Source of the DNA: Vogesella indigofera
GTDB lineage: Bacteria; Pseudomonadota; Gammaproteobacteria; Burkholderiales; Chromobacteriaceae
Length of the DNA: 64,000 nt
Reading direction: 5' to 3'
Assembly: GCF_003633895.1 (NCBI RefSeq)
Contig: NZ_RBID01000016.1
Span: 1 to 64,000, forward strand
This document shows positions 4,903 to 63,118 of the stretch, piece after piece. The notes beneath the pieces are model-generated. The model was not told the DNA's origin, ran no database searches, and was given only the letters and a program-made list of their open reading frames with translations. Position 1 is the stretch's first letter. Each line of letters opens with the position of its first letter. Position numbers and translations under genes: made by a program.

Positions 4903-5142
4903 GATGTAACTCTCCTTATTGTGATGCGCGATCTCGGTGCTGCTGCCTGACGGCAGGCGGTTGCGCGAGGCGTTATGTGCCGTGCGCGAACTTTAGCGGC
5001 AGCCGGCGGTCGGCGTCATTTGGGGCTTGCCCTTGCGGGTTAACCCTGAGCAATCAGGTCAAGCTACTGAAAACAAAGGAAAAGACGAAAAAATGGCCGC
5101 AATGCCGGACAGGCGTTGCGGCCAACCTTGTGGCGGGGGGGC
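4903..5142. other. Intergenic region upstream of lldP
   Basis: This must hold the lldP promoter (minus strand), but I see no strong -35/-10 pair. Its right end carries an imperfect inverted copy of the dispersed AAGGTTGGCCGCA element, placed just after the lpxH stop. Confidence 0.5.
5094..5130. repeat. AAGGTTGGCCGCA element, imperfect inverted pair
   Basis: An exact minus-strand copy at 5117-5129 faces a shortened left arm, TGGCCGCAA at 5094-5102, and together they can form a 9-base stem. The pair lies 13 bases beyond the lpxH stop codon and may end lpxH transcription. Confidence 0.8.
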
Positions 5143-5865
5143 TTACGGCAGCGGGTGGGCGGAGACGCCGCTGTCATCCAGGCACAGGTAACCGGCGCGG
5201 CCGTCGTGCCAGTCCTGGATCACCCAGCGTGTACGCTCGCCGTCGGCCAGCGCATGGTGGTGTACGGCCGGACGGTGGGTGTGACCGTGAATCAGCGTGC
5301 AGCCAGGGTTGGCCGCAAGCAGGGCGACAACGGCGTCTTCGGTCACGTCGCTGATTTCGCTCGGGCCGTCCTGCTGCTTGCGCGATTCGCTCTGCTCGCG
5401 GATGTGGCGGGCGATGGCGTGGCGCTCCGCCAGCGGCTTATGCAGGAAGGCTTGCTGCCAGGCCGGCTGCCGCACCATGGCGCGGAACTGCTGGTAGGCG
5501 CTGTCGTCGCCACACAGTGCGTCGCCGTGGCTGAGCAGGTAGCGGCGGCCGTAGGCCTGCAGCGGGTGTGGGTCGGGCAGCAGCGTGGCGCCGCTGGCGG
5601 CGGCAAAGCCGGCACCGAGCAGGAAGTCGCGGTTGCCGTGCATCACGAACAGCGGTGTGTGGCGGCTGAAGTCGCGCATCGCCGCAACCATGCTGTGGGC
5701 GAAGGCGTCATCGTCGTCGTCGCCGACCCAGTACTCGAACAGGTCGCCGAGGATGTACAGCGCGTCGATGTGGCCGGCCCACTGCCGCAGCGTGCGCTGG
5801 AACAGTTCGCCCAGCCACGGTGCTTCGGCGTGCAGGTGCAGATCGGAGATCAGGTGTATGGCCAT
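5143..5865 (-). CDS. lpxH: UDP-2,3-diacylglucosamine diphosphatase
   Basis: A cytoplasmic/peripheral membrane metallophosphoesterase (240 residues) that hydrolyses UDP-2,3-diacylglucosamine to lipid X, the fourth step of lipid A synthesis. The calcineurin-like metal ligands are all visible: DLH at 8-10, GDLFEYW with D41, GNRD at 77-80, SHGDALC, and a C-terminal GHTHRP. I chose the internal ATG at 5865 because the protein then begins MAIHLISDLH, as in the family; a longer in-frame extension to 5991 has no family resemblance and overlaps ppiB. It lies downstream of ppiB and ppiA on the same strand. An AGGGTTGGCCGCA near-copy of the dispersed repeat lies inside it at 5305. Confidence 0.93.
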   Translation of the reverse strand: MAIHLISDLHLHAEAPWLGELFQRTLRQWAGHIDALYILGDLFEYWVGDDDDDAFAHSMVAAMRDFSRHTPLFVMHGNRDFLLGAGFAAASGATLLPDPHPLQAYGRRYLLSHGDALCGDDSAYQQFRAMVRQPAWQQAFLHKPLAERHAIARHIREQSESRKQQDGPSEISDVTEDAVVALLAANPGCTLIHGHTHRPAVHHHALADGERTRWVIQDWHDGRAGYLCLDDSGVSAHPLP

Positions 5866-5881
5866 CGTGCAGCACCATGAA

Positions 5882-5903
5882 TAAGGGCCGCACGCAGCGG
5901 CCC
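5882..5903 (-). terminator. Weak hairpin between ppiB and lpxH
   Basis: Arms GGGCCGC and GCGGCCC enclose a 5-base loop just after the ppiB stop, followed on the minus strand by only TTATT. It is probably a partial terminator or an RNA-stabilising structure within the ppiA-ppiB-lpxH set. Confidence 0.4.
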
Positions 5904-5923
5904 CGGGTCTTGCGTGAACGGGA

Positions 5924-6424: not shown

Positions 6425-6442
6425 GATGGGAGTCCTTGGGGA

Positions 6443-7012: not shown

Positions 7013-7100
7013 GGTTTCCGGAGAGTTGAGGCGCGCAGTTTAGCATGAGGCCGGCGGCGATGTGCCAGCCGGCGCGAGCTGCGGCGCGCCCGTCGGCGGT

Positions 7101-7127
7101 TAAAGATTGTGCGGCAACGGCCGATAA
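7101..7127 (+). promoter_or_regulatory. Sigma-28 (FliA) promoter of flgP-flgT
   Basis: TAAAGATT at 7101-7108 and GCCGATAA at 7120-7127 are separated by exactly 11 bases. The consensus is TAAAGTTT-N11-GCCGATAA, so only one base differs. Transcription would start near 7134, about 40 bases before flgP. Confidence 0.88.
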
Positions 7128-7174
7128 AGCGATGAAGCAATAACACGACATGTAATCAGTAGGCGGAGAACGCA

Positions 7175-7873
7175 ATGAAAAAAACGGTTTTGGCAACAAG
7201 TCTGCTGGCACTGGTGTCGGTGACAGCCTGCGCCTCGTCCGCGGCGCCGGCGGCGCAGGAAGCGGCCGGCGAAGGCTGGATGGTGGTTGCCGATGCGCCT
7301 GCCGTGGCGGGAAGCCATGAGCAGCCGGGGATCTCCCGGCAGCCGGTGATGACCCAGGGCGGCGTGATGATGGGCGGCGGCTATGTCGGCCCCTTGTCCG
7401 AGCCGGCAGCCAAGGAAGTGGAAAAATACAACGCACTGCGCATCCGTGTGGTCGGCTACGGCGCGCCGCCGGCCAACCGCAGCCTGTCGCCGGTGCAGCG
7501 CCGCCTGCTGGCGATGCGTGCCTCGCAGCTGGATGCCTATCGCGCAATGGCGGAGCAGGTGCAGGGCTTCAAGCTGTCCGGCAGCAGTACCGTCGGCAAC
7601 ATGATTGCGGCCAACGATAGCTACCGCGTGTTCGTCGATGCCTACCTGCGCGGCGTGCGACTGCTGTCCACCGAGTTCAAGGCCGACGGCAGCAGCGAGA
7701 CCATCGGCGAAGTGGTATTGGACGAAGGCTTCTTCAAGGCTTATCGTAGCGCGCTGGTGACCACCGGCAACGTGGCGACCGCGGCGCGGGTGCTGCCCGC
7801 CGCCGACGGCAGCAAGCTGGGATGTACCGACAGCGGTTGTGTCTACGGTGGCGACTACTATGTTTCGCATTGA
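7175..7873 (+). CDS. flgP: LPP20-family flagellar outer-membrane lipoprotein (FlgP-like)
   Basis: A 232-residue lipoprotein. The signal peptide ends in the lipobox VTAC (Cys 19), so it should be lipidated and sent to the outer membrane. The rest resembles the LPP20 lipoprotein family, to which Vibrio FlgP belongs; FlgP helps form the outer-membrane disk around polar flagella. Two facts support a flagellar role: an almost perfect sigma-28 promoter lies directly upstream, and a FlgT-like gene follows after 8 bases. The start ATG has AGGCGGAG upstream. The gene name rests on this context and on the family, not on a detailed alignment. Confidence 0.72.
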   Translation: MKKTVLATSLLALVSVTACASSAAPAAQEAAGEGWMVVADAPAVAGSHEQPGISRQPVMTQGGVMMGGGYVGPLSEPAAKEVEKYNALRIRVVGYGAPPANRSLSPVQRRLLAMRASQLDAYRAMAEQVQGFKLSGSSTVGNMIAANDSYRVFVDAYLRGVRLLSTEFKADGSSETIGEVVLDEGFFKAYRSALVTTGNVATAARVLPAADGSKLGCTDSGCVYGGDYYVSH

Positions 7874-7881: not shown

Positions 7882-9168
7882 ATGAAAACTAAACCATTCT
7901 GGTACGCCGCCCTGTGGGCGGCGTTTTTGTTGGCAGGACCGGCGGCGGCCGAGGTGTATCGCGCCGAAGGCATGGCCTCGCTGGAGTCCGGCCTTGTCGC
8001 GGCGCGGCAGCAGGCGATCGAGGACGCGGTGCGGCAGATGGCGATGACCCACGCCGGCACGCTGCAGGCCACGTCGCGGCTCGATAACGGCGAACTGACC
8101 GAATCGAGCATGACCGGGCCGCTGACGCTGCCCGGTACGCCGCGCGTGCTGCAGGAAAGCCAACGTGACGGGCTGCTGTTTGTCACGGTGGAAGTCGATA
8201 CCGCCGAACCGGTGTCCGCCGCGGAAGCGGCCGGTGCGTCTGCCAGTCAGGCTTGCGCCCGTCCGGCGACACCGGCGGGGCGTTTCCTGACCCGGCGGCT
8301 GGTCAGCACCTATTTCGAGGTAACTCAACCGCAGGATGCCGGTGACCTCGGCAATCTGGCGACCTGGTTGCCGTCCGAACTGTCACGACGGCTGAATGCG
8401 CTGCGCGACGTGCGCGCGCTGGATGCCGGCAACGTGTCGCTGTTCCCCGGCGGCAAGGTGCAGGAGCCGTGGCAGGCCAGCGATGCCGTGCGCGACATCG
8501 GCCGCCGCGAGGAGGTGCAGTTCGTGCTCGCCGGGCGGGTGCTGGATACCGGCGTCACCCGCAAGGAGCCGCGGCTGGGCGCGTTTGGCGGCGCCAGCGG
8601 CAGCGAGGCCGGGCTGTATTACACCGGGCCGCTGGCCGGCCTGTTCGGCGCCTCGGCACGGGTGGTGCCGGTGGAGCGCCGCTTCGCCGTCGAATACTGG
8701 CTGTACGACGCGCTGACCGGCGGCGTGCTGGCCACAGCCACGGTGGCAACGACTGCGCGCGGCGCGGTGCACGACAGCTCGCTACGTGTCTTCGATCTGA
8801 GCCGCTTCCAGCAAAACGACTATGGCCGCAGCGTGGCGACGCTGCTGGATGGCGTTGCCGGCAAGCTGGCGAACACCATGCACTGCCTGCCGTTCGCGGC
8901 GCGGGTGGTGCGGGTGGACGGTGACCGCGTCTACCTGGGCGCCGGCACGCTGGACGGACTGGCCAGTGCCGACCGCCTCATCGTCTACAAGCAGCAGCCG
9001 CAGACCGAGATCCGTCGCGGCGACGGCGTGGTGCTGGGGCTGCCGGAGCGGGTGATCGGCGATGTCGAGCTGCTGCAGGTGCAGCCGCGGCTGGCGGTGG
9101 CGATGCTGCGCAATGCCCGCGGCAAGGTGGATGTCGGCGACTGGGTGCGCTTTCCGGTGCGGCGCTGA
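7882..9168 (+). CDS. flgT: Flagellar assembly protein FlgT-like
   Basis: A 428-residue exported protein with a clear signal peptide (ends [12 protein letters not shown]). The N-terminal domain ([15 protein letters not shown], about residues 33-47) is typical of FlgT, which in Vibrio forms the H ring around the polar flagellar basal body. The C-terminal part has SH3-like features ([22 protein letters not shown]). I chose the ATG at 7882, because the longer frame starting at 7822 would overlap flgP and bury the signal peptide. It shares the sigma-28 promoter with flgP. Transcription probably ends at the inverted AAGGTTGGCCGCA pair 18 bases after the stop. Confidence 0.75.
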
Positions 9169-9185: not shown

Positions 9186-9223
9186 AAAGGTTGGCCGCAA
9201 GCGTCGTTTTGCGGCCAACCTTT
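9186..9223. repeat. AAGGTTGGCCGCA inverted pair after flgT
   Basis: Two exact copies in opposite orientation (9187-9199 plus, 9210-9222 minus) form a perfect 15-base stem with an 8-base loop and three T at the end. It is placed as a terminator for flgT, and lies before the fbpA promoter. Confidence 0.93.
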
Positions 9224-13142: not shown

Positions 13143-13151
13143 GCGGCCATG

Positions 13152-13182
13152 AAAAAACCCGGTGCCAGGCACCGGGTTTTTT
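13152..13182. terminator. Bidirectional terminator between fbpC and pbpG
   Basis: A near-perfect palindrome, AAAAAACCCGGTGCC facing GGCACCGGGTTTTTT, lies between convergent fbpC and pbpG. A-run on the left and T-run on the right make it work both ways. Confidence 0.92.
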
Positions 13183-13185
13183 GCT

Positions 13186-13198
13186 TGCGGCCAACCTT
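13186..13198 (-). repeat. AAGGTTGGCCGCA element, single copy
   Basis: An exact copy read on the minus strand (TGCGGCCAACCTT on plus), sitting between the bidirectional terminator and the pbpG stop codon. Confidence 0.9.
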
Positions 13199-13206
13199 GG
13201 CGCGGT

Positions 13207-14205: not shown

Positions 14206-16224
<2,019 letters not shown>

Positions 16225-16758: not shown

Positions 16759-17454
16759 ATGGTCATGCCGCGTAAAGAAGGGCTGGATTTCAAACCGCTG
16801 GAAGTCGCGCCCAGTCACACTGCCGACGCCGTCCTGCCGCGCCAGCCTGGCCGGCTGGCACTGGGGCGCCAGACGGTCATCGCCATCGGTTCGTCCACCG
16901 GTGGCACCGAAGCGCTGCGGGTATTGCTGACCGCGCTGCCGGAGCAGATGCCGCCGATCATCATCACCCAGCACATGCCGGAAATGTTCACCAAGTCCTT
17001 TGCCGCGCGCTTGGATTCGCTGTGCAAGCTGCGGGTCAAGGAGGCGGAAGACGGCGAGCGCTTGCAGCCGGGCGTGGTCTATATCGCGCCGGGCCATTCC
17101 CATCTGCTGATCAAGCCGGCCAGCACCATCGGTTACGCCATCAGCCTGCACCAGGGGCCGCCGGTCAACCGCCACAAGCCGTCGGTGGACGTGATGTTCC
17201 GCGCTGCGGCCAACGTCATCGGGCGCAATGCCATCGGCGTGATCCTGACCGGCATGGGGCGCGATGGCGCCTCCGGCATGGGCGAGCTGAAAGAGGCGGG
17301 CGCCCATAATATCGCGCAGGACGAGGCGTCCTGCGTGGTGTTCGGCATGCCGAAGGAGGCCATTGCCCTCGGCGCCGCCCATGAAGTGTTGTCACTCAAC
17401 AATATTGCCGCGCGCCTGATCGCGCTGTGCAGCCAGCGCCAGCATCAGGACTAA
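16759..17454 (+). CDS. Receiver-less CheB-type protein-glutamate methylesterase
   Basis: A 231-residue protein consisting only of a CheB methylesterase domain with a short N-terminal arm of about 35 residues. The catalytic triad is visible: Ser 46 in GSSTGGTE, His 72 in TQHMPEMF and Asp 169 in GMGRDGA. Canonical CheB has an N-terminal receiver domain of about 120 residues that restrains the enzyme until phosphorylated; here it is absent, and no frame for it exists upstream. The start ATG has AGGGG at good spacing. It would remove methyl groups from chemoreceptors or deamidate their glutamines. It lies just before the flagellar regulator. No other chemotaxis genes are in the window. Confidence 0.85.
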
Positions 17455-17505: not shown

Positions 17506-18834
<1,329 letters not shown>

Positions 18835-24625: not shown

Positions 24626-25744
24626 ATGGCCATTACCGTCCAGTCCGTTTTAAACCTGAGCGACAGCTCGGCCACTCCGAGCCAAAGCTATGTCAGCACG
24701 CCGGACTCCCCTTTTGCCATGTTCTTTGCCAACCAGTTGCAGGCGTTTACCCTCGGGCAGCCGGGCGTGGCGGCGGCCGGCGACAGTGCGCTGCTGGACG
24801 GCATCGGCCAGCAGCCGCGTGCTGCCGCGGCGCAAGACGCTTCCTTGCTGTTGGGCGGCTTGTTTATGCCCGGCAATGCCGCGGCCAACCCGCTGACCAC
24901 CGCTGCCGGCAAGGATGCCGCGGCGCTCTCCGCCCTGCCTGATCCCGCGGCGCTCGGCGAAGCACTGGCGGCGGAAGAGTTGGCCGCACTGGCCGCTGCC
25001 AAAACCAAGGCCGCCAAAGGTGGCGAGACGGCCGGCGCATTGTCGGAACTGGCAGCGCTGACCGGCGACGCCGCCGCTGACGAAGCGCCGGTACTGCCGG
25101 GGCTGCTGGCCGCCGCCAGCAGTGACAAGCGGGCGCTGCGCGCGTTGAAGGATGATGGCCTGTCCGCCGCGGTGGCGGTGCGGCTGGCCATGCGCGAGGC
25201 TGAAGCGGCCGAGGCTGGTTCCGAAGTGAAAACCTTGCCGCCGGCACTTGCCGCCGGGCGGCAGGAATTGCCGACCGACTTGTCCGCCAGCGGCGCCGGC
25301 AAGGAGCTGAAGGAAGTGCTGCTGGGTGGCACCATGGATCGCAGCAAGCAGTGGGGCGAAGCCTTTGGCCAGCAAGTGGTGAAGGCGGTCGAACGGCAGC
25401 TGGACTCCGCGCGCTTCCATGTCACCCCGGAAAAGCTGGGGCCGATTGAAGTCCAGATCTCCATGAACAAGGAGCAGGCGCAGATCGTGGTGACCACCTC
25501 CAACCTGATGGCCAAGGAAATCGTCGAGAGCCATCTGCCGGCGCTGTCGCGGATGATGGAACAGGCCGGTCTGCAGCTGGCCGATGCCCAGGTCTCCTCG
25601 CAGCAGCAGGGCCAGCAACAGCACGGCCAGCAGGCGCAGCAGCAGCGCGGCCGCACCCAGTCCGAGGCGATGTCGCCGCTGGCTGAGCTGGAGTCCGCCG
25701 CACCGGCGGCGACCGTCTCTTCCGGCCTGAGCGTGACCGCCTGA
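24626..25744 (+). CDS. fliK: Flagellar hook-length control protein FliK
   Basis: A 372-residue secreted ruler that measures the hook and switches export from hook to filament subunits. The N-terminal two-thirds are Ala/Leu-rich and low in conservation, as usual. The conserved C-terminal hook-length control domain (about 240-335) includes LGPIEVQISMNKEQAQIVV. A glutamine-rich run (QQQGQQQHGQQAQQQ, about 330-345) follows. A sigma-54 promoter lies just upstream. Confidence 0.93.
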   Translation: MAITVQSVLNLSDSSATPSQSYVSTPDSPFAMFFANQLQAFTLGQPGVAAAGDSALLDGIGQQPRAAAAQDASLLLGGLFMPGNAAANPLTTAAGKDAAALSALPDPAALGEALAAEELAALAAAKTKAAKGGETAGALSELAALTGDAAADEAPVLPGLLAAASSDKRALRALKDDGLSAAVAVRLAMREAEAAEAGSEVKTLPPALAAGRQELPTDLSASGAGKELKEVLLGGTMDRSKQWGEAFGQQVVKAVERQLDSARFHVTPEKLGPIEVQISMNKEQAQIVVTTSNLMAKEIVESHLPALSRMMEQAGLQLADAQVSSQQQGQQQHGQQAQQQRGRTQSEAMSPLAELESAAPAATVSSGLSVTA

Positions 25745-25771: not shown

Positions 25772-25784
25772 AAGGTTGGCCGCA
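25772..25784 (+). repeat. AAGGTTGGCCGCA element, single copy
   Basis: An exact plus-strand copy in the 153-base gap between fliK and fliL, 27 bases after the fliK stop. No inverted partner is present. Confidence 0.9.
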
Positions 25785-27886: not shown

Positions 27887-28323
27887 ACCGATTGCTGATT
27901 GTGTTGCTGTTGCTGCCGCTGTCGGTCAGCGCCGCCGTGCCCGCCGCCGATGCGGGCACTTCGCCGTTGTGGGGGCTGGTACAGGTGATGCTGGCGCTGG
28001 GATTGGTGCTGGCGGTGATCGTCGGTGCCGCGTGGCTGTTCCGCCGCGTCAGCATGGGCGGCATGCTCGGACGCTGGCAGCCGGCCAAGGTGGTCAGCGG
28101 CGTGATGGTCGGCCCGCACGAGCGGGTGGTGATCGTCGAGCTGGAAGGGCAGTGGCTGGTGCTGGGCGTGACGGCGAAACAGGTCAACCTGCTGACCAGC
28201 ATGGCGCGGCCGGAAGGCGCCGCCAATGCCGCCGCCGTGCCGGCGGCCACGCCACCCTTTGCCGAATGGTTGGCCGCAGCGCTGGCCAAACACCGCCGAC
28301 CCTCCTCCAACGATACGCCATGA
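27883..28323 (+). CDS. fliO: Flagellar biosynthesis protein FliO
   Basis: A 146-residue inner-membrane protein with a signal-like N-terminus and one further membrane helix (about 29-50), followed by a cytoplasmic domain with VVIVELEGQWLVLGVTAKQVNLL. FliO helps assemble the FliP ring of the export gate. It overlaps fliN and fliP by 4 bases each (ATGA). A one-mismatch copy of the dispersed repeat (ATGGTTGGCCGCA) occurs at 28266-28278 and encodes part of AEWLAAAL. Confidence 0.9.
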   Translation: MNRLLIVLLLLPLSVSAAVPAADAGTSPLWGLVQVMLALGLVLAVIVGAAWLFRRVSMGGMLGRWQPAKVVSGVMVGPHERVVIVELEGQWLVLGVTAKQVNLLTSMARPEGAANAAAVPAATPPFAEWLAAALAKHRRPSSNDTP

Positions 28324-31715: not shown

Positions 31716-31750
31716 ACAAGGTTGGCCGCAAGGCTTGCGGCCAACCTTGT
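31716..31750. repeat. AAGGTTGGCCGCA inverted pair between convergent genes
   Basis: Exact copies at 31718-31730 (plus) and 31736-31748 (minus) lie within perfect 17-base arms (starting ACAAGG) around one base. The pair sits 3 bases after the binding-protein stop and 24 before the glsA stop, ideal for a two-way terminator. Confidence 0.94.
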
Positions 31751-33576: not shown

Positions 33577-33589
33577 AAGGTTGGCCGCA
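33577..33589 (+). repeat. AAGGTTGGCCGCA element, single copy
   Basis: An exact plus-strand copy in the gap between the arfB stop and the HD gene start. A near-copy (TGCGGCCAACCTG) lies at the other end of arfB, at 34019-34031, in the opposite orientation, so arfB is flanked by the element. Confidence 0.9.
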
Positions 33590-33617: not shown

Positions 33618-34019
33618 TCAGTCGCGCACCGGACCGCGCAGCGACTTGACCTTGCCGCGCAGGCTCTTGCTGTCCATGCGTCGCTGCCGTGCGCCGTAGC
33701 TCGGCTTGCTGGCGCGGCGGGCCTTCTGTTCGTGGCTGATGCTGTCGACCAGCTGCTGCAGCCGCTGCAGCGCATCCTGCCGGTTCTGCTCCTGGGTACG
33801 GTATTGCTGCGCCTTGATGATCAGCACGCCGTCCTTGCTCAGGCGCTGGTCCTGCAGTGCCAGCAGGCGTTCCTTGATGTGCTCCGGCAGGGTCGAATCG
33901 CGGATCACGAAGCGCAGGTGGATGGCGGAGGACACCTTGTTGACGTTCTGTCCACCGGCGCCCTGCGCACGCACGGCGCTGATGTCGACCTCCTGCGGCG
34001 AAACCGGATACTTGCTCAT
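33618..34019 (-). CDS. arfB: Alternative ribosome-rescue factor / peptidyl-tRNA hydrolase ArfB
   Basis: A 133-residue RF-1-like protein that enters stalled ribosomes and releases the nascent chain. The catalytic GGQ motif is in AQGAGGQNVNKVSSAIHLRF (about 19-38). The basic C-terminal tail (ARQRRMDSKSLRGKVKSLRG) that inserts into the empty mRNA channel is present, separating ArfB from true release factors. The length is normal. It is divergent from the GAF-domain gene. Confidence 0.93.
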   Translation of the reverse strand: MSKYPVSPQEVDISAVRAQGAGGQNVNKVSSAIHLRFVIRDSTLPEHIKERLLALQDQRLSKDGVLIIKAQQYRTQEQNRQDALQRLQQLVDSISHEQKARRASKPSYGARQRRMDSKSLRGKVKSLRGPVRD

Positions 34020-34221
34020 GCGGCCAACCTGTGACCGCGGGCAGCGCCGGCGGGCGGACTTGCGGCAGGCGCGTGGGTGATATCGATAGCAGCAGTCATG
34101 ATTTCGGCTTTGTACGGGGATTGGGCATAATGCGGCGATGGCCGCAGGGTGCGGGATAACCGGATTCTAGCGCCTTTGCGATGATTGCGTATGGAGCCGG
34201 CGGCGCCGGCGAGGAGGGTTG

Positions 34222-34926
34222 ATGACTGATTATCTGCAGCGGGCCGGACTGGCGTTGTCCGCGACACAACTGGCCGCCGCGCAGCAGGCACTGGCGGTGG
34301 CGCTGACGGTGCCCACGGCAGCGGACTATCCCGATTTGTACCGTTACCCGGTACCCAAGCTGGGCGAGGGCGGCAGTTGTTCGCTGATCGACGAGCTGGA
34401 GGCCGAGCCGTGGGACATCGCGCCGCAGTTTGGCGGCGAATCGCTGCCGCTGGCGCAACAGCTGCTGGCGTTACAGGCCTTGCTGGATGCGGTGCTGGCG
34501 CAGGTGCCGGCCGACTGGCTGGGGGTGTATTGCCGGGTGCCGCGACCCGAGGCCGACGTGCTGCTGAAGCTGGCCTACCGCGGCCTGCCCAGTCGCGCCG
34601 AATTCCCGCTGACCGAGGCGTTTGCCGCCGCCAGCAACAACAGCAAGGTTGGCCGCAGTGGCCGTGGTGTGGTGATTGACGATGTGCGGCAATGGCAGCA
34701 CGCGGGCGGCGCCTATTACGAGTGCGACCCCAGGGTGCGCAGCGAGGTGTGCCTGCCGGTGTTTGACGCGGCCGGCGAGGTGATCGGCATTCTCGACGCC
34801 GAGTCGGCGCAGCCGGGGTTTTTTCACGCCGGGCACCAGGCCACGCTGGCAGCATTGGCCTGCGCGCTGGCGGCGCATTTCGTCAGCCTGCGGGCACTGG
34901 CCAAATCGGCGGCGACGGTACTTTAA
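34222..34926 (+). CDS. GAF-domain protein
   Basis: A 234-residue soluble protein. The C-terminal 150 residues form a GAF domain with the hallmark strands SEVCLPVFDAAGEVIGILDAES, similar to free methionine-(R)-sulfoxide reductase. Four cysteines are visible (GGSCSL, VYCRVP, YECDP, EVCLP), but I cannot confirm that they match the catalytic set, so an enzyme name is not given. The start ATG 34222 has a strong GAGGAGGG. An exact copy of the dispersed AAGGTTGGCCGCA element lies inside at 34645-34657, encoding part of NSKVGRSG. Confidence 0.7.
   Translation: MTDYLQRAGLALSATQLAAAQQALAVALTVPTAADYPDLYRYPVPKLGEGGSCSLIDELEAEPWDIAPQFGGESLPLAQQLLALQALLDAVLAQVPADWLGVYCRVPRPEADVLLKLAYRGLPSRAEFPLTEAFAAASNNSKVGRSGRGVVIDDVRQWQHAGGAYYECDPRVRSEVCLPVFDAAGEVIGILDAESAQPGFFHAGHQATLAALACALAAHFVSLRALAKSAATVL
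34645..34657 (+). repeat. AAGGTTGGCCGCA element inside the GAF gene
   Basis: An exact copy, one of only three in coding sequence. It encodes the KVGR part of a low-conservation loop in the GAF domain. Confidence 0.9.
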
Positions 34927-34957: not shown

Positions 34958-35590
34958 ATGAATGCACAACAAGTGGAAGCCAACGTGACTCAGCCTGATT
35001 CTCCGGTGCGCGTCGATTATGTCGCAACCTGCCAGTTACCCACGCAGTGGGGTGTTTTCGACATGCACGGCTTTGAAGAAGTCGGAGGGCGCGAGCACGT
35101 GGTGCTGACGCTGGGCGAGGTGACTGACGGTGCGCCGCTGACCCGCATCCACTCCGAATGCCTGACTGGCGACGCGCTGTTTTCTTTGCGCTGTGACTGC
35201 GGCTTCCAGCTGGCGGCCGCGCTGGAAGCAATCGCCGCCGAGGGGCGGGGCGTGCTGGTGTATCTGCGCCAGGAAGGTCGCGGCATCGGCCTGATCAACA
35301 AGATTCGCGCTTACAAGCTGCAGGATGGTGGCGCCGATACCGTCGAGGCCAACGAACGGCTGGGTTTTCCCGCCGACATGCGCGATTTCCGCATCGCGCG
35401 CGAGATGCTGGCGCATCTGGGGGTGACGGCGGTGCGCATCATGACCAACAATCCGCGCAAGATCGACACTCTGGAACAGGCCGGCATCGAGGTGGCCGAG
35501 CGCGTGGCGCTGCAGGTTGGCCGCAATGCCTACAACGACCACTATCTCGACACCAAGAAAGCCAAGCTGGGTCATTTGTTCGGTCTTTGA
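34958..35590 (+). CDS. ribA: GTP cyclohydrolase II
   Basis: A 210-residue enzyme for the first step of riboflavin synthesis, converting GTP to a diaminopyrimidine with loss of formate and pyrophosphate. The zinc-binding cysteines are in [19 protein letters not shown] (about 66-84), and the nucleotide site [12 protein letters not shown] follows. It is a stand-alone RibA, not fused to RibB. Two starts are possible: ATG 34958 and GTG 34985; the latter has a better Shine-Dalgarno (GGAAG) and still covers the whole domain. I see no FMN riboswitch upstream. Confidence 0.95.
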
Positions 35591-39230: not shown

Positions 39231-39254
39231 GTTGCGGCCAACGTTGGCCGCAAC
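39231..39254. repeat. Perfect 24-base palindrome, variant of the dispersed element
   Basis: Two GTTGGCCGCAA cores in opposite orientation are fused back to back without spacer, the junction reading AACGTT instead of the usual AACCTT. It lies 5 bases from the dsbD stop, the same gene-end position as the inverted pairs. Confidence 0.75.
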
Positions 39255-41144: not shown

Positions 41145-41930
41145 ATGACCCCCATCATTCATTTTGCCCACGCCAACAGCTTTCCGGCGTCGGTGTACCG
41201 CAAATTGCACCAGTCGCTGCGCGATCAGGGCTGCCACGTCGGCTACCTTGACTGCATCGGCCACGATCCACGCTATCCGGTGACCGACTGTTGGCCGCAT
41301 CTGGTCGAGGAGACCGTTGCCTATATGCGCCAGCATTATGACCGGCCGGTGGTCGGCGTCGGGCACTCGCTGGGCGGTTTCATCCTGTTCTTTGCCGCCA
41401 TTCGCCACCCGGAGCTGTTCAGCAAGCTGATCATTCTCGATTCGCCGCTGATGGGGCCGCTGCGTTCGCGCGGCATCTGGCTGGCGAAAAAACTGGGCTT
41501 CATCGACCGCGTGACGCCGGGCGGCAACACCCTGAAGCGGCGCGACAACTGGGCCAGCGTCGAATCGGTGTACGACTATTTCGCGCGCAAGCCGATGTTT
41601 GCCCGCTTCGATCCCGACTGCCTGCACGACTATGCCGCGTTGGGCACGGTGGCGACGGCCGATGGCGGTCGCCGGCTGAAATTCCGGCCGGTGATCGAAA
41701 ACGCGATCTACAACACGCTGCCGCATTCGCTACCCCGCTACAAGGGACAGCTGCGGGTGCCGACGGTGTTTGTCGCCGGCGAGGACAGCGATGTGCTGAC
41801 GCCGGCCGATCTGGCCTTTATGCGCAAGCACTTCGCTGTGAACATCGTTGTGCAAAAAGGTTCGCACCTGTTTCCGCTGGAGCAGCCGCAGGCCACGGCC
41901 GAACTGATCATGGCGCAACTGGCCGGCTGA
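41145..41930 (+). CDS. Alpha/beta hydrolase
   Basis: A 261-residue soluble hydrolase. The nucleophile elbow is GVGHSLGG (Ser about residue 71), an acid residue is likely in GEDSDVLTP, and the His in KGSHLFPLEQP; together they form the catalytic triad. No signal peptide is seen. Family members are esterases, lipases or thioesterases, and the substrate cannot be told from sequence. ATG 41145 is chosen because GAGGAG precedes it and the fold begins there (PIIHFAHANSF). It is convergent with mnmC, only 1 base separating their ends. Confidence 0.82.
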   Translation: MTPIIHFAHANSFPASVYRKLHQSLRDQGCHVGYLDCIGHDPRYPVTDCWPHLVEETVAYMRQHYDRPVVGVGHSLGGFILFFAAIRHPELFSKLIILDSPLMGPLRSRGIWLAKKLGFIDRVTPGGNTLKRRDNWASVESVYDYFARKPMFARFDPDCLHDYAALGTVATADGGRRLKFRPVIENAIYNTLPHSLPRYKGQLRVPTVFVAGEDSDVLTPADLAFMRKHFAVNIVVQKGSHLFPLEQPQATAELIMAQLAG

Positions 41931-44013: not shown

Positions 44014-44048
44014 CAAGGTTGGCCGCAGGCGGATTGCGGCCAACCTTG
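44014..44048. repeat. AAGGTTGGCCGCA inverted pair between mnmC and acs
   Basis: Exact copies at 44015-44027 (plus) and 44035-44047 (minus), 7 bases apart, form a 14-base stem (CAAGGTTGGCCGCA). It lies between the acs end and the mnmC start on the minus strand, just beyond a separate acs terminator. Confidence 0.93.
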
Positions 44049-48479: not shown

Positions 48480-49376
48480 ATGGAAATCTACCAACTGCGC
48501 ACCTTTGTTACGGTGGCTCAGCAAGGCCATCTGACTCAGGCTGCCGAGCTGCTTCACTTGTCGCAGCCGGCGGTGACGGCGCAGATCAAGGCCATTGAAG
48601 AAGAAGTCGGCATGTCCTTGTTCGAGCGCACGGCGGGGGGGGTGGTGTTGACGCTGGCGGGGCAGGAGCTGCTGCCCCGCGCGCAGGACATTCTGGTTTC
48701 GGCGCGGCAGCTGCTTGACCATGCCCGCAGCCTGAAGGGGCCGCTGACCGGCAAGGTGCAGATCGGCATTGCGCTGACCCCGGACGTGCTGCGGGTCGGC
48801 CCCTGGGTAGCCGGCCTGGCCGAGCGCTTTCCCTTGCTGGAGGTGTGTCTGCATCAGGGTGTTACCGGCGACGTGCTCAATGCGGTGCGCAAGAAAGAAC
48901 TGGACGCCGGTTTCTATCTCGGCAAAAACCCCTACGTCAACGTGCACACCCTGTTGTTGACGCAGCTGCGCTTGCGCATCGTGATGCCCAAGGGCTGGCT
49001 GGCGCGGATCAATGCGGCCAACCCCAAGGAGCTGGGACGTCTGCCGTGGGTCGGCATTTCCCAGTTTTCCAGCCTGTCGAAGATCGTGTCCGAGCTGTGG
49101 CGGGAGCTGAACATCGCCCCGAAAAAGGTATCGGAATGCGACAACCTGTTTACCGCTTCCGAGCTGGTGCAAGCGGGTGTCGGCCTCGCCTTGCTGCGCG
49201 AGGAAGATGCGCTTCGCGCCGTCGAGCGCGGCGTGGTCGATCTGGTGCCGGAGATCGTGAAGATGGCAGAGCTGCAGTTCGTCTATCCGGCCGACCGGGC
49301 CGACGACCCGATTCTGCAGACGCTGGTTGCCGGCCTGCAGCCGGTGTGGGGCCTGAACAGCAACCTTGTTGTCTGA
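48480..49376 (+). CDS. LysR-family transcriptional regulator
   Basis: A 298-residue regulator. The N-terminal winged helix-turn-helix (TQAAELLHLSQPAVTAQIKAIEEEVGMSLFER, about 19-50) is classical, followed by a periplasmic-binding-protein-like effector domain (about 90-295). AGGAG precedes the ATG. It is divergent from DUF485-actP-acs, so control of acetate uptake and activation is the most likely role by position; the effector is unknown. Confidence 0.9.
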   Translation: MEIYQLRTFVTVAQQGHLTQAAELLHLSQPAVTAQIKAIEEEVGMSLFERTAGGVVLTLAGQELLPRAQDILVSARQLLDHARSLKGPLTGKVQIGIALTPDVLRVGPWVAGLAERFPLLEVCLHQGVTGDVLNAVRKKELDAGFYLGKNPYVNVHTLLLTQLRLRIVMPKGWLARINAANPKELGRLPWVGISQFSSLSKIVSELWRELNIAPKKVSECDNLFTASELVQAGVGLALLREEDALRAVERGVVDLVPEIVKMAELQFVYPADRADDPILQTLVAGLQPVWGLNSNLVV

Positions 49377-49405: not shown

Positions 49406-49882
49406 ATGGCAACGGTTTTTCAGCAGTATCTCGATGCGGTACAGACCAATCAGCAACGCATGTTGGCCGCACAGGCCGATTGCTGGCGTAGCTGGTGTCA
49501 GCTATCACAGCCGACCGACGGTGCACCGGGCCTGATCGGGCAACTGGATGCGCCGATGATGTCGAGCGCCTCGGTATTGCAAGCCTCTGCCGATGCGCAG
49601 CATGACCTGCTGCTGGTGCTGGAACGCTGGTTTGGCGAACAGCAAAAAACCTGGCTGCGGCACTCGCCGTTGCTCTCGGCTGCACCCTGTGTGCTGCCAC
49701 TGGACCTCGGCTTTTCCGGCTACCTGATCGCGTCGCGTGCCAGCCGCCAGATCCAGCATTTTGCTTCCACCCGCTTTTCCTATGCCACGCTGTCCGCGGT
49801 GCGTGGCGCCCACCACGCCTATCGCAAGTGTCGCAATAACCCTGTTGCCGCTTCGGTGTTTTATCCGCGCCCGGCAGTCTAG
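49406..49882 (+). CDS. Uncharacterised protein downstream of the LysR gene
   Basis: A 158-residue protein that I do not recognise. The first half is probably helical (FQQYLDAVQTNQQRMLAAQADCW and ASADAQHDLLLVLERWFGEQQ), faintly like small phasin-type proteins, but this is too weak to name. The second half contains FSGYLIASRASRQIQHFASTRFSYATLSAVRGAHHAYRKC. There is no clear signal peptide. AGGGG precedes ATG 49406; an alternative ATG at 49376 overlaps the LysR stop. It is probably co-transcribed with the LysR gene. Confidence 0.6.
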   Translation: MATVFQQYLDAVQTNQQRMLAAQADCWRSWCQLSQPTDGAPGLIGQLDAPMMSSASVLQASADAQHDLLLVLERWFGEQQKTWLRHSPLLSAAPCVLPLDLGFSGYLIASRASRQIQHFASTRFSYATLSAVRGAHHAYRKCRNNPVAASVFYPRPAV

Positions 49883-54365: not shown

Positions 54366-55493
54366 TCAGCGCAGGTCTTTCAGCACGCCGTAAATGGCGC
54401 TCAGGCTGGCTTCGCCAAGACGCAGGCTGCGCTGGCCATTCCAGCCGAAGTCGTCGTCCGGCAGGTTGTCGTTGTCCTTGAACGGCATTTCCAGGGTATA
54501 GGCCAGGCAGTTGAACTGGTTGCCGACCCAGGCCGTCGCCATCGCAAGGTTGGCCGCACCGGGGGCGTCCTTGTCGTAGCCGTGCTCATCCTGGAAGTCG
54601 GGCGATGCCACGCGCAGTTGCTGCTTGAACGCGGTTTCCAGTGCCGCGATGCGCTCGTTGTAGCTGGGCACGCCTTCGGTGCCGGCGACAAACACGTACG
54701 GAATCGCCTCGTCGCCGTGGATATCGAGGAACAGGTCGACGCCGGTTTCCAGCATCTTGTTGCGGACATGAAACACTTCCGGACTGGTTTCCAGACTCGG
54801 ATTCAGCCATTCGCGGTTCAGGTTGGCACCGGCGGCGTTGGTGCGCAGGTTGCCGAGAATGGCGCCGTCCGGGTTCATGTTCGGCACCACGTAGAAGGTG
54901 GCCCGGTCCAGCAGTGCGCGCGAAGTCGGATCCTGGGTGTCGAGCAGGCGGGTGAGCAGCCCTTCGACAAACCATTCCGCCATCGTTTCACCGGGGTGCT
55001 GGCGGGCGATGACCCAGATCTTGAGGTCGGACTCGACCTCGTGGCCGATGGTCAGCAGGTTGACGTCGCGTGCCTGCACCGTCGAGCCGAGATCGGATAC
55101 CTGGCACAGGCCGGAGCTTTGCGCCATGCCGATCAGGTTCAGGTGCTGCTCGTGCGAGTACGGCTCGAAGTAGGCGTAGTAGATGCTGCCGGCCAGCGGA
55201 ACGTGTTCGATCACCAGCTCGTCGCCGTCCAGATAGGTCGGCACGCGGAACCAGTTGACGCGATCGTAGGACGCCACCGCCTGGTAGTCTTCCCAGCCCT
55301 TGGGATAGGCCGTTTCCTTGATGTTGAGGAAACGCAGCTTGCACAGCTCGTAGGCGGCACCCTGCAGCCGGAAGTAAAACCATTGGGCAAAATCGGAGGC
55401 ATTATCTTTGCGGATGCGAAGCTGAATGTCTTCAAAGTTATTGAGCGCGATAACCTCGATACTGCCGGCGTCGAAATTGCTGCTGATTTTCAT
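54366..55493 (-). CDS. M14-family zinc carboxypeptidase
   Basis: A 375-residue cytoplasmic metallopeptidase of the M14 family, similar to cytosolic carboxypeptidases. The zinc ligands and catalytic Glu are in place: HPGE with His 166 and Glu 169, DIHGDE with His 259, and LEMPF with Glu 335; the substrate residues NPDG and NREW are also present. An N-terminal beta-sandwich domain (about 1-125) precedes the peptidase, as in that subfamily. No signal peptide is seen. An exact copy of the dispersed element lies inside at 54546-54558, opposite to the coding strand. Confidence 0.87.
   Translation of the reverse strand: MKISSNFDAGSIEVIALNNFEDIQLRIRKDNASDFAQWFYFRLQGAAYELCKLRFLNIKETAYPKGWEDYQAVASYDRVNWFRVPTYLDGDELVIEHVPLAGSIYYAYFEPYSHEQHLNLIGMAQSSGLCQVSDLGSTVQARDVNLLTIGHEVESDLKIWVIARQHPGETMAEWFVEGLLTRLLDTQDPTSRALLDRATFYVVPNMNPDGAILGNLRTNAAGANLNREWLNPSLETSPEVFHVRNKMLETGVDLFLDIHGDEAIPYVFVAGTEGVPSYNERIAALETAFKQQLRVASPDFQDEHGYDKDAPGAANLAMATAWVGNQFNCLAYTLEMPFKDNDNLPDDDFGWNGQRSLRLGEASLSAIYGVLKDLR
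54546..54558 (+). repeat. AAGGTTGGCCGCA element inside the carboxypeptidase gene
   Basis: An exact plus-strand copy lying antisense within the minus-strand gene. It encodes part of GAANLAM near the C-terminus. Confidence 0.9.
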
Positions 55494-57092: not shown

Positions 57093-58412
57093 ATGTCGCA
57101 CGTTGCACCAAAAGTAGGGTTTATCAGTCTGGGCTGTCCGAAGGCGGCCAGCGATTCCGAGCAGATCCTCACCCGCCTGCGTGCGGAGGGCTATGAAATT
57201 TCCGGTACTTACGATGGTGCCGACCTGGTAGTGGTCAACACCTGTGGCTTCATCGATGCTGCGGTGCAGGAGTCGCTGGATGCCATCGGCGAGGCGCTGA
57301 CCGAAAACGGCAAGGTGATCGTCACCGGCTGTCTCGGCGCCAAGGGCGACGTGATCCGCGACAACCATCCGTCGGTACTGGCCGTCACCGGCCCGCACGC
57401 CACCGACGAGGTGATGGGGCACGTGCACAATCACCTGCCGAAGCCGCACGACCCGTTCGTCGACCTGGTGCCGGACATCGGCGTGCGCCTGACGCCGAAG
57501 CACTACGCCTACCTGAAAATTTCCGAAGGCTGCAACCATCGCTGCACCTTCTGCATCATCCCGTCGATGCGCGGCGACCTCGACAGCCGCCCGATCCAGA
57601 ACGTGCTGGCGGAAGCCGAGAACCTGGCGAAGGCCGGCGTCAAGGAACTGCTGATCATCTCGCAGGACACCTCCGCCTACGGCGTCGACGTCAAGTACAA
57701 GCTGGGCTTCCATAACGGCCGCCCGGTGAAGACGCGCATGACCGAGCTGTGCGAGGAACTGGGCAAGCACGGCATCTGGGTGCGCCTGCACTATGTCTAT
57801 CCGTACCCGCACGTCGACGAAGTGATTCCGCTGATGCGCGACGGCAAGATCCTGCCCTACCTGGACATCCCGTTCCAGCACGCCAGCCAGAAAATCCTGA
57901 AGCTGATGAAGCGGCCGGCCAACAGCGACAACGTGCTCGGCCGCATCAAGAAGTGGCGCGAGATCTGCCCGCAGCTGGTGATCCGCTCCACCTTCATCGT
58001 CGGCTTCCCCGGCGAGACCGAAGAAGACTTCGAGGAGCTGCTGAACTTCATCCGCGAGGCGCAGCTGGATCGTGTCGGCTGTTTCACCTACTCGCCGGTG
58101 GAGGGCGCAGCCGCCAACGAGCTGCCGGACCCGGTGCCGGACGCGGTGAAGGAGGAGCGCAAGGAGCGCTTCATGGCGGTACAGGCCGAGATCAGTGCCG
58201 CAAGGTTGGCCGCACGCATCGGCCAGCGCCTGCAGGTGCTGGTCGACGAGATCGACGAGGAAGGCACTGCGGTCTGCCGCAGCTACGCCGATGCGCCGGA
58301 GATCGACGGCCTGGTGTTTGTCGAGGACGCGGCCGGCCTGGTGGTCGGTGATTTTGTCGAGGTCGAAATCGTCGATGCCAGCGAGCACGACCTGTGGGGC
58401 GAGCGCGTGTAA
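57093..58412 (+). CDS. rimO: Ribosomal protein S12 methylthiotransferase RimO
   Basis: A 439-residue radical-SAM enzyme that adds a methylthio group to Asp 88/89 of ribosomal protein S12. Both iron-sulphur sites are complete: Cys 15, 51 and 80 in the N-terminal domain and Cys 147, 151, 154 (CNHRCTFC) in the radical-SAM domain. A C-terminal TRAM domain closes the protein. AAGG lies 9 bases before ATG 57093. An exact copy of the dispersed element at 58202-58214 encodes part of [10 protein letters not shown]. Confidence 0.96.
58202..58214 (+). repeat. AAGGTTGGCCGCA element inside rimO
   Basis: An exact plus-strand copy in the region joining the radical-SAM and TRAM domains, where the protein tolerates variation. 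Confidence 0.9.
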
Positions 58413-59427: not shown

Positions 59428-59460
59428 CAAGGTTGGCCGCAGGCGTTGCGGCCAACCTTT
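59428..59460. repeat. AAGGTTGGCCGCA inverted pair between the two pirins
   Basis: Exact copies at 59429-59441 (plus) and 59447-59459 (minus), 5 bases apart, followed by TTTTTT. Stem plus T-run make it a convincing terminator for pirin 1. Confidence 0.95.
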
Positions 59461-60448: not shown

Positions 60449-60467
60449 TTTCCTATTAATCATTATC
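60449..60467 (+). promoter_or_regulatory. Fur-box-like site upstream of the GGDEF-EAL gene
   Basis: Nineteen bases match the Fur consensus at 13 positions, including the whole right half AATCATTATC. The surrounding 100 bases are AT-rich, and TATAAA at 60484 may be a -10, though no good -35 is seen. Confidence 0.5.
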
Positions 60468-60529
60468 AAATGACGGTGTTCAGTATAAATAGTTACTGCA
60501 CCGTCTAACGAATGTCTGGAGCTGATTGC

Positions 60530-63022
60530 GTGTCGTTTTCCCGGTCCGTCGAGTCTATCCTGTCACGCCAGGTACTGAGCTGCCTGCCCACCGCCACGGT
60601 GAGCGAGGCGGCTTTTGCCATGTGCCGTGAGCGCTGTGGCGCCATTATCGTGATGGACGAGGGCGGGCGGCCGGTCGGGGTGTGGACCGAGAGCGACGCG
60701 GTCCGGCTGGACCTGCAGCAGCCGGGGGTGGCCTCGACGCCGGTGGCGACGGTGATGTCGTCGCCGGTGCGCACCATTGCCGCCAATGCCACCATCCAGG
60801 AAGTCACCGCGCTGCTGCACAAGCAGCGCATGCGCCATCTGGTGGTGACTGAGCCGGGCGGCAACCGCGTGATGGGCGTGGTGTCGACCACCGACATCGT
60901 CATCAATCAGGAGGCCGAGTTTTTCCTGCGCCTGAAGCGGCTGGATGCGATGGTGCATGTGCCGCTGGCCACCATCGCCGCCACCGCCGATATCGGCACC
61001 GCCACCCGGCTGATGCGCGAGCACAAGGCCGAGGCGCTGGGCGTGACCTACGCCGACGGCAGCTGGGGCATCCTCACCCAGCGCGACATGCTGCAGCACC
61101 TGGCGCAGCCGCGCGGCGGCCTGACGGTGGCCGATCTTGCCAGCCATCCACTGCGCACGGTGCCGGTGCAGATGACCCTGCTGGCCGCGCGCAAGGTGCT
61201 GCTGGAGCACCAGCTGCGCCATCTCGGCGTCACCGACGGCAGCGGCCAGCTGCTGACCATCATCGGCATGTCCGACATCCTCGCCACCATCGAGCAGGAA
61301 TTTCTCGCCGAGCTGCATCACGCACTACGCGAGCGTGATGAGGCGCTGCTGCGCTCACGGCAGAGCCTGCTGATGGCGGACAAGGTGTTCGAGTCGACGA
61401 TGGAAGGCATCGTCATCACCGACAGCAAGGGGCTGATCCAGTCGGTCAACCCGGCATTTTCCCGCATTACCGGCTACTCGCGCGATGAGGCCATCGGCCA
61501 TACCCCTGCCTTGCTCAAGTCCGGGCGCCAGTCGGCGGATTTCTACGAACACATGTGGCGGCAGCTGGAAAGCGACGGTTTCTGGCAGGGCGAGGTGGTC
61601 AACCGCCGCAAGAACGGGCTGCTCTATACCGAACACCTGACCATCACCGCCATCGGCGATGATCAGGGTGTGACCCAGCACTACGTCGCGGTGTTTGCCG
61701 ACATCACCCAGCGCAAGCAGGCTGAGGAGCGGCTGCATTTCCTCGCCAACCACGATGCGCTGACCGGGCTGCCCAACCGCACCCTGTTCGCGGAAAAGCT
61801 GCAGGCGGCGGTGGAGCAGGCGCGCGAGCAACAGCAGCGCTTTGCGCTGATGTTCATCGATCTCGACCGCTTCAAACTGATCAACGACACGCTGGGGCAC
61901 CAGGCCGGCGACGAACTGCTGGTGAAAATCTCGCAGCGGCTGCAGGAAGAAGCGCCGGGCAGCAGCACCGTGGCACGCCTGGCCGGTGACGAGTTCACCA
62001 TCCTGCTGCCCAATAGCGGCAGCCTGACCACGCTGGCCAGCATGGCGCAGGATATTCTGGACAGCATTACCGGCGAGCTGGTGCTGGGCGGCAACAGCAA
62101 GGTGTTTGTCTCCGCCAGCCTCGGCATCGCGGTGTTTCCCGATGACGGACGTACCGCCGATAGCCTGCTGGTCAATGCCGATGCCGCGATGTACCGCGCC
62201 AAAAACCGCGGCAAGAACACCTTCCAGTTCTACACCGCCGACATGAATGCCAGCGCCATGGCACGGCTGAAGCTGGAGTACAGCCTGCACCGCGCGCTGA
62301 TCAAGGACGAATTCCAGGTCTGGTACCAGCCCAAGGTCGATCTCGCCAGCAGCGCGCTGGTGGGCATGGAGGCGCTGATCCGCTGGCAGCATCCGGAAAT
62401 GGGCTTTGTGCCGCCGGTGGAGTTCATCCCGGTGGCCGAGGAGTGCGCGCTGATCGTGCCGATCGGCGCCTGGGTGTTGCAGGAAGCCTGCCGCCAGACC
62501 AAGCAGTGGGCCGACCGTTGCGGCTTTGGCGGCCGGGTGGCGGTCAACCTGTCCGGGCGCCAGATCAAGTTCGGCAACATCGTGGAAACGGTGGCGCAGG
62601 TGCTGCAGCAGACCGGCCTGCCGCCGTCGCAGCTGGAGCTGGAAATCACCGAAAGCACGGCGATGGACAGCGACGGCGAGGTGATGAAGGCACTGGAAGG
62701 GCTGCGCGCGATGGGCATCACGCTGGCGATCGACGATTTCGGCACCGGCTATTCCTCGCTGGCCTACCTCAAGCGCCTGCCGGTGCAGGTGCTGAAGATC
62801 GACCGTTCCTTCATCAAGGATCTGGATCGTGACAAGGACGATGCTGCCATCGCCTCGGCGGTGATTTCGCTGGGCCGCAGCCTGGGCTTGTCCATCGTGG
62901 CCGAGGGGGTGGAAAGGCCGGCCCACCGCGAGTTCCTGATCGGCCAGGGTTGCCATCAGGCGCAGGGCTACCTGTTCGGCAAGCCGCAAACCGCCGCCGA
63001 GTTCCAGCACTTGTTGTGCTAG
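60530..63022 (+). CDS. CBS-PAS-GGDEF-EAL cyclic-di-GMP signalling protein
   Basis: A protein of about 830 residues with four CBS motifs in two pairs (about 10-125 and 140-270), a PAS domain (about 285-400), GGDEF (about 410-580) and EAL (about 590-830). The GGDEF signature reads LAGDEF, with the first Gly replaced, so cyclase activity is uncertain. The EAL side looks intact (MEALIRW, LEITEST, IDDFGTGYSSL), so it probably degrades c-di-GMP. CBS pairs bind adenine nucleotides and may sense energy state. There are no membrane segments. GTG 60530 is preferred because CTGGAG precedes it; ATG 60512 is the alternative. A Fur-box-like site lies upstream. Confidence 0.9.
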   Translation: MSFSRSVESILSRQVLSCLPTATVSEAAFAMCRERCGAIIVMDEGGRPVGVWTESDAVRLDLQQPGVASTPVATVMSSPVRTIAANATIQEVTALLHKQRMRHLVVTEPGGNRVMGVVSTTDIVINQEAEFFLRLKRLDAMVHVPLATIAATADIGTATRLMREHKAEALGVTYADGSWGILTQRDMLQHLAQPRGGLTVADLASHPLRTVPVQMTLLAARKVLLEHQLRHLGVTDGSGQLLTIIGMSDILATIEQEFLAELHHALRERDEALLRSRQSLLMADKVFESTMEGIVITDSKGLIQSVNPAFSRITGYSRDEAIGHTPALLKSGRQSADFYEHMWRQLESDGFWQGEVVNRRKNGLLYTEHLTITAIGDDQGVTQHYVAVFADITQRKQAEERLHFLANHDALTGLPNRTLFAEKLQAAVEQAREQQQRFALMFIDLDRFKLINDTLGHQAGDELLVKISQRLQEEAPGSSTVARLAGDEFTILLPNSGSLTTLASMAQDILDSITGELVLGGNSKVFVSASLGIAVFPDDGRTADSLLVNADAAMYRAKNRGKNTFQFYTADMNASAMARLKLEYSLHRALIKDEFQVWYQPKVDLASSALVGMEALIRWQHPEMGFVPPVEFIPVAEECALIVPIGAWVLQEACRQTKQWADRCGFGGRVAVNLSGRQIKFGNIVETVAQVLQQTGLPPSQLELEITESTAMDSDGEVMKALEGLRAMGITLAIDDFGTGYSSLAYLKRLPVQVLKIDRSFIKDLDRDKDDAAIASAVISLGRSLGLSIVAEGVERPAHREFLIGQGCHQAQGYLFGKPQTAAEFQHLLC

Positions 63023-63052
63023 CCATTTCCGGTTGCCACCGGGGCCGGGCGC

Positions 63053-63083
63053 AAAAAAAGCCGACGCGATGCGTCGGCTTTTT
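63053..63083. terminator. Bidirectional terminator between the GGDEF-EAL gene and serS
   Basis: AAAAAGCCGACGC and GCGTCGGCTTTTT with a 3-base loop; A-run and T-run on either side. It is directly followed by the inverted repeat pair. Confidence 0.95.
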
Positions 63084-63087
63084 GCTG

Positions 63088-63118
63088 AAGGTTGGCCGCA
63101 ACGCTTGCGGCCAACCTT
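63088..63118. repeat. AAGGTTGGCCGCA inverted pair before the serS end
   Basis: Exact copies at 63088-63100 (plus) and 63106-63118 (minus), 5 bases apart, form a 14-base stem. It lies between a classic terminator and the serS stop, in a convergent gene gap. Confidence 0.95.

Follow-up and report, generated by a model that had tools for sequence, protein, structure and literature searches.

A dispersed word as candidate DNA uptake sequence of Vogesella and, respelled, of other genera of the Chromobacteriaceae

A recurrent 13-base word in a 64-kb window of Vogesella indigofera

The window analyzed here, i.e., the first 64,000 nucleotides of contig NZ_RBID01000016.1 of the V. indigofera assembly GCF_003633895.1, is interspersed with copies of a nonpalindromic 13-base word, which an earlier inspection of the letters without database searches (here termed the sequence-only reading) had suggested to be an undescribed DNA uptake sequence (DUS). 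All 17 exact copies that it had located were recovered at the same positions and on the same strands, with approximately none expected, 13 of them being preceded by C and 12 followed by A, as it had also reported. When up to one mismatch was allowed, 24 sites were found, compared to 0.16 +/- 0.39 after dinucleotide-preserving shuffling, a count of 24 not being attained in any shuffle, while the 10-mer core of the word, GTTGGCCGCA (see below), is present 32 times. The intergenic bias which had been noted was likewise apparent, with 14 of the 17 exact copies located between genes, though 90.6% of the window is coding according to our own gene caller; genes were called with a simple purpose-written script, and all figures on gene position are therefore approximate. 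The copies in the window are as follows, with positions numbered from its first letter.

5117..5129 (-), exact word, intergenic
5305..5317 (+), core word AGGGTTGGCCGCA, within a gene
7606..7618 (-), core word ATCGTTGGCCGCA, within a gene
9187..9222, inverted pair of exact words (9187-9199 +, 9210-9222 -), hairpin of -27.8 kcal/mol, downstream of a gene ending at 9168
13186..13198 (-), exact word between convergent genes, beside another terminator-like hairpin
14427..14439 (+), AAC-form word in uvrB
15461..15473 (-), core word in uvrB
17205..17217 (-), core word within a gene
18129..18141 (-), core word in a sigma-54 response regulator gene
24976..24988 (+), core word in a fliK-like gene
25772..25784 (+), exact word immediately 3' of the fliK-like gene
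28266..28278 (+), core word ATGGTTGGCCGCA, within a gene
31718..31748, between convergent genes, two exact words forming an inverted pair (hairpin of -35.3 kcal/mol)
33577..33589 (+), exact word, intergenic
34019..34031 (-), core word CAGGTTGGCCGCA
34645..34657 (+), exact word in coding sequence
35513..35525 (+), core word CAGGTTGGCCGCA, within a gene
39233..39252, overlapping inverted pair TGCGGCCAACGTTGGCCGCA (AAC-form words with AACGTT in common), between convergent genes
41287..41299 (+), core word within a gene
44015..44047, at a gene boundary, two exact words forming an inverted pair (hairpin of -32.7 kcal/mol)
49013..49025 (-), core word within a gene
49459..49471 (+), core word within a gene
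54546..54558 (+), exact word in coding sequence
58202..58214 (+), likewise an exact word within coding sequence
59429..59459, two exact words forming an inverted pair with a T-run after it (terminator-like; hairpin of -24.3 kcal/mol)
63088..63118, between convergent genes, two exact words forming an inverted pair (hairpin of -28.6 kcal/mol)

Folding of the inverted pairs yields hairpins with energies between -24 and -35 kcal/mol, some of which run into T-tails (e.g., 59429-59459). At positions 13150-13200, an independent terminator-like hairpin (AAAAAACCCGGTGCC...GGCACCGGGTTTTTT) directly adjoins a single word, and the word is, therefore, not always the supplier of the terminator.

Genome-wide abundance and the conserved unit

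The V. indigofera genome, a draft assembly of 3,618,773 bp in 20 contigs, contains 960 exact copies of the 13-mer (489 forward and 471 reverse) and none of the reversed pattern, which bears out the genome-wide enrichment implied by the sequence-only reading. Detailed statistics, including those of the following section, rest on 855 kb or 24% of the genome (C1:1-400k, C5, and C6:1-140k). Within this portion, words containing or overlapping the 13-mer dominate the over-represented 10- to 14-mers, and the copies, rather than being restricted to a few operons, are spread across all contigs examined.

While the 13-mer counts of the sequence-only reading were exact, 13 nucleotides did not hold as the conserved unit, the real core being the 10-mer GTTGGCCGCA, of which 469 copies were observed against 10.6 expected. 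The core is extended at its 5' side by AAG in 209 and by AAC in 104 of these copies; A is found at -3 and at -2 in at least three quarters each, and position -1 is occupied by G (61%) or C (32%). Positions 4 to 12 of the 13-mer are almost invariant, single-base variants at these positions being near background. The AAC form overlaps itself, such that TGCGGCCAACGTTGGCCGCA comprises two words with a common AACGTT, and 19 such pairs were encountered. Conservation stops at approximately 14 nucleotides, about one base past the word, and long conserved flanks are absent, in line with the sequence-only reading.

Distribution and maintenance of the word

The two strands are balanced in each 100 kb, and copies within genes are equally frequent in both orientations. 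The intergenic share of the 13-mers amounts to 58%, though coding sequence makes up approximately 85% of the DNA; 274 to 276 of the 469 core copies are situated inside genes. The in-gene core count (274) exceeds by 35-fold the 7.9 copies expected from the encoded peptides and codon usage, and the 13-mer was observed 87 times in genes against an expectation of 0.49; six scrambled control words yielded 0 to 14 copies against 2.9 to 10.5 expected under the same codon model. The word forces the use of rare codons, namely GTT (4.9%), AGG (1.4%), TTG (7.3%), and GCA (7.6%). Codon or peptide bias is, consequently, not the source of its abundance. The in silico tests of the uptake-word reading were thus favorable, with counts far above those of shuffled, reversed, and codon-matched controls.

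Between genes, the density of the word is 3.76 per kb in convergent gaps, 1.38 in tandem gaps, and 0.26 in divergent gaps, with 154 intergenic sites closest to a gene end versus 37 closest to a gene start. Of the 62 close pairs, 61 are in inverted orientation, and most core copies are not part of a close pair. A comparison of collinear regions with three related Vogesella genomes showed 31 of 32, 28 of 32, and 28 of 29 core sites to be kept, as against 65%, 59%, and 52% of random 10-mers in the same three comparisons (binomial P of 2e-5, 5e-4, and 2e-7, respectively).

Dialects of the word in Vogesella and sister genera

All 13 Vogesella genomes carry the 13-mer in 379 to 960 copies, and no other genome of the 48-genome panel contained more than 7. 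Vogesella clade A genomes harbor 905 to 960 copies with a strong 5' AAG/AAC extension; those of clade B harbor 379 to 601 copies, and the extension is weaker. The sampling of other genera of the Chromobacteriaceae revealed a sister word, AGGTTGGCCGAA (or with G as its last base). In the form GGTTGGCCGAR, this word is present in 126 to 1068 copies in genera g2, g3, g4, g5 (Gulbenkiania), and g10 and in a single g6 species (G017), and its counts in Vogesella, the remaining g6 species, g7, g8, g9, and 24 other families are those of the background. The dialects may, therefore, be described as GTTGGCCG followed by CA (Vogesella), AA (g2, g3, g5, and g10), or AG (g4). Counts of the pattern GTTGGCCGMA amounted to 2052 in Vogesella margarita LYT5W, 1265 in Gulbenkiania mobilis DSM 18507 (G016), and 2226 in "Neisseriaceae bacterium JH1-16" (G014), and to 37 and 31 in Craterilacuibacter RT1T and TC5R-5, respectively, with reversed controls of 7 to 42 in these genomes. 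In most word-bearing genomes, the density of the 11- to 13-mer word is 0.13 to 0.33 per kb. The account given by the sequence-only reading consequently stands for Vogesella, yet it missed both the related word of the sister genera and the in-register match with Neisseria DUS dialects described below.

No comparable word was found in 60- to 100-kb samples of g6 (G030), g7, g8, and g9. One g8 genome (G019; L116-L118 and L263-L264) harbors a dispersed GGGGTCAGGTCTT repeat, with 14 copies at seven places in 100 kb, often doubled, which is REP-like (repetitive extragenic palindrome-like) rather than uptake-like.

A ComP-like minor pilin family and competence genes

The sequence-only reading had proposed a search for a ComP-like minor pilin, and a candidate gene was identified at C11:94160-94585, one of 11 pilin-like matches in the genome. 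Its product scores 46 bits against the Pfam family ComP_DUS (PF16732; cut-off, 27.3) and resembles ComP beyond the common pilin N terminus, with phmmer matches to solved ComP structures. A profile of the 18-member family retrieved 2nba (2.8e-20), 2m3k (2e-18), and 5hz7 (1.1e-17) as the top matches of all PDB chains. A FimT-like pilin gene, L020:1144-1578 (-), for whose product no Pfam match was obtained, is located directly upstream of the comP-like gene in Vogesella clades A and B.

The Pfam match alone was initially considered as proof of ComP and was dropped, as a PilE-like paralogue, L011:511-930 (+), passes the ComP_DUS cut-off with a higher score (70 versus 46 bits) and matches none of the solved ComPs; such a match is, therefore, not specific for DUS receptors. 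Only the phmmer and profile searches single out the C11 gene among the pilins.

A ComP-like minor pilin is encoded in all word-bearing genomes examined. Identity between these proteins is 85 to 94% within Vogesella clade A and only 40 to 50% between the clades. In a ComP tree of modest size, the Vogesella proteins (CA) are placed apart from those of the other genera (AA/AG) with a support of 100/100. The ComPs of word-free genera nest among the AA/AG group on long branches, which is consistent with loss and relaxed constraint. Of 23 word-bearing genomes, 21 encode a ComP with an N-x-D-x-G motif, which was not observed in the ComP of any of six word-free genomes; within g6, the motif is present in the word-bearing G017 and absent from three word-free species. 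A strict rule by which this motif equals presence of the word was abandoned on account of two exceptions (G006 and G021), and the relationships of motif and tree with the word represent correlations, the word and genus boundaries being in part coincident. The genome of V. indigofera also encodes ComEC, DprA, ComEA, and PilQ.

Interpretation as a probable ComP-read uptake sequence

Based on these findings, we consider it highly probable that the word serves as a DNA uptake sequence in Vogesella and, respelled, in several other genera of the Chromobacteriaceae, a role in which it would be read by ComP. Free word-bearing DNA would be bound by the ComP-like minor pilin at the tip or side of the type IV pilus, the retraction of which would pull the DNA through PilQ; the DNA may then be passed to ComEA and ComEC, guarded by DprA, and integrated into the chromosome by recombination. 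Through the preferential uptake of word-bearing fragments, the word would be copied and preserved by recombination, and it is presumed to accumulate in permissive places (gene 3' ends and synonymous or tolerant codons) and to be absent from newly arrived foreign DNA. The inverted pairs may have been recruited secondarily as transcription terminators.

The word and its setting resemble the DUS of the Neisseriaceae (PMC3630211, PMC3868556, and PMC12061091) in representing a nonpalindromic word of 10 to 13 nucleotides with approximately a thousand copies on both strands, in its inverted pairs at terminators, in its genus-specific dialects, and in the presence of a ComP-like minor pilin and competence genes; the dialects also separate on the ComP tree, although this is confounded with the genus boundary. 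In register with the DUS, AGGTTGGCCGAA matches AG-simDUS (AGGCTGCCTGAA) and AG-mucDUS at 9 of 12 positions, a match reached by 1.2% of shuffles at any offset or strand and by 0.34% in register (dialect sequences were taken from PMC10715097 and PMC12061091 and from the description in PMC3630211). Furthermore, the A-to-C change at +9 which sets the Vogesella dialect apart from the other Chromobacteriaceae dialects is that by which kingDUS and king3DUS differ (AAGCAGCCTGCA). Because of this in-register match and the same change at +9, homology of the new words and the Neisseria DUS words is plausible as judged from their sequences. The A at +10, invariant in Neisseriaceae DUS, is kept in the new words with the exception of genus g4, in which it is replaced by G, and copy density is lower here than in most Neisseriaceae.

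The Chromobacteriaceae, the home of the new word, were reported in 2013 as a family without DUS or ComP: no obvious DUS was found in Laribacter, Lutiella, Pseudogulbenkiania, and two Chromobacterium genomes, no ComP was detected in C. violaceum by BLAST, and the DUS system was placed after that split (PMC3630211). The designation of the word as undescribed stands, as no account of it was found in the open-licence literature (bioRxiv preprints being outside the search), where literal word sequences returned unrelated matches only. As the sequence-only reading had also stated, the word does not contain the core of the Pasteurellaceae uptake signal sequence (USS), AAGTGCGGT. The two systems would be alike in principle, both involving a dispersed self-word that favors the uptake of kin DNA; the USS is, however, an unrelated word that operates without ComP, and the receptor in genomes with the USS is a different one, the nature of which is still debated.

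Several observations weigh against the proposed role as a ComP-read uptake sequence. The CTG core (+6 to +8) common to all published Neisseriaceae DUS dialects is CCG here, GGTTGGCC standing where the DUS has GGCCGTC/GGCNGCC; the new word would function like a DUS yet, because the CTG core rule fails, falls outside the published dialect set. The higher ComP_DUS score noted above belongs to the second pilin of the minor-pilin operon, and the closest match to ComP in the word-bearing G021 is a divergent one. Of the two disulfides that are conserved in ComP, a single one retains its cysteines, with the C-terminal pair C129 and C138 alone invariant, whereas Neisseria ComP possesses two such pairs, i.e., four cysteines (beta1-DD loop and beta4-beta5) (PMC12061091). 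Since the split in the ComP tree also follows the genus boundary, it could stem from shared ancestry alone. ComP-like pilins and ComEC are, moreover, also encoded in word-free genera and are thus not sufficient, so that competence is not in itself a distinguishing trait. Finally, no report of natural transformation in Vogesella was found in the open-licence literature.

Alternative explanations

A signal for recombination or segregation in the manner of Chi, KOPS (FtsK-orienting polar sequence), or matS, recognized as a short word on replicating DNA by RecBCD, FtsK, or a nucleoid protein, would share with the present word its nonpalindromic nature and its genome-wide dispersal in several hundred copies. 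Such signals are, however, oriented with replication or bound to a macrodomain and are not concentrated as inverted pairs at gene 3' ends, whereas the strands are even here per 100 kb (within the limits of a draft assembly) and overall (489 versus 471), and the dialects track the ComP-like pilin family; this explanation is accordingly considered very improbable. The same low probability is assigned to a methylation or restriction motif or a word kept for reasons that are not known, in the manner of HIP1 (highly iterated palindrome 1), which demonstrates that dispersed words can abound without being uptake sequences. HIP1 is a palindrome, which the new word is not; in addition, the new word forms inverted pairs that mark the 3' ends of genes, is missing from a transposon- and defense gene-bearing island (see below), and changes its spelling between genera together with the ComP-like pilin.

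The strong hairpins formed by the pairs at gene ends, some with T-tails, might suggest that the word is merely a favored intrinsic-terminator stem. A hairpin requires complementarity rather than one fixed sequence, yet variants at positions 4 to 12 are near background, and over half of the core copies reside in genes, 35-fold above the codon-matched expectation; because of this enrichment in coding sequence, a terminator-only reading is refuted, and we deem it even less probable than the preceding two. The least probable alternative is a mobile repeat of the REP or BIME (bacterial interspersed mosaic element) type spread by a RAYT (REP-associated tyrosine transposase), elements which are likewise short, intergenic, and often inverted, as the intergenic bias and inverted pairs of the present word might indicate. 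Conservation that ceases at approximately 14 nucleotides, in place of a long conserved unit, argues against this, as does the majority of core copies being unpaired and over half being located in genes. The sequence-only reading had named a linked RAYT as a sign of such an element, which was rejected, as no Y1_Tnp (PF01797) match at an E value of <=1 was present in the genome.

Origin and significance

The combination of ComP and DUS may be older than published. In this scenario, to which we assign an even chance, the common ancestor of the Neisseriaceae and Chromobacteriaceae possessed ComP and a word of the form AGGNTGNCYGAA, which drifted to the CTG-core and CCG-core dialects of the two families, respectively, and was lost several times in the Chromobacteriaceae, including in most species of one genus. 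If this is true, the words all belong to a single homologous lineage, with the "invariant" CTG core being a feature of the Neisseriaceae rather than a rule of ComP recognition.

To our knowledge, self-specific uptake words with a matching receptor are known essentially from one family, the Neisseriaceae. A second family with words, dialects, and ComP-like pilins of its own, and with both word-bearing and word-free species in one genus, would permit direct tests of how uptake specificity originates, drifts, and is lost. The diverged receptor-word pairs (with CA, AA, and AG endings) may also help to elucidate the manner in which DNA is read by ComP, and the word is a possible tool for the genetics of Vogesella and Gulbenkiania.

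Word-free and word-poor stretches of low GC content

The longest word-free stretch in the 855 kb is a 26-kb low-GC island (55% GC) at C1:367-394 kb, outside the window. It harbors TniA/TniB/TniQ transposition genes, a gene for an Avs1a-like metallo-beta-lactamase (MBL) protein (PADLOC, 539 bits), and one for a 2563-amino-acid DnaG-like primase/Toprim/reverse transcriptase (PADLOC RT_UG29, 2727 bits) (L070:11632-19323 + and L071:5692-11651 -), and it represents a mobile defense island. Foreign DNA of this kind lacks the word. A second low-GC, word-poor stretch (C1:~43-92 kb) encodes a PifA-like KAP NTPase (L056:4213-6546 [-]; PADLOC, 267 bits).

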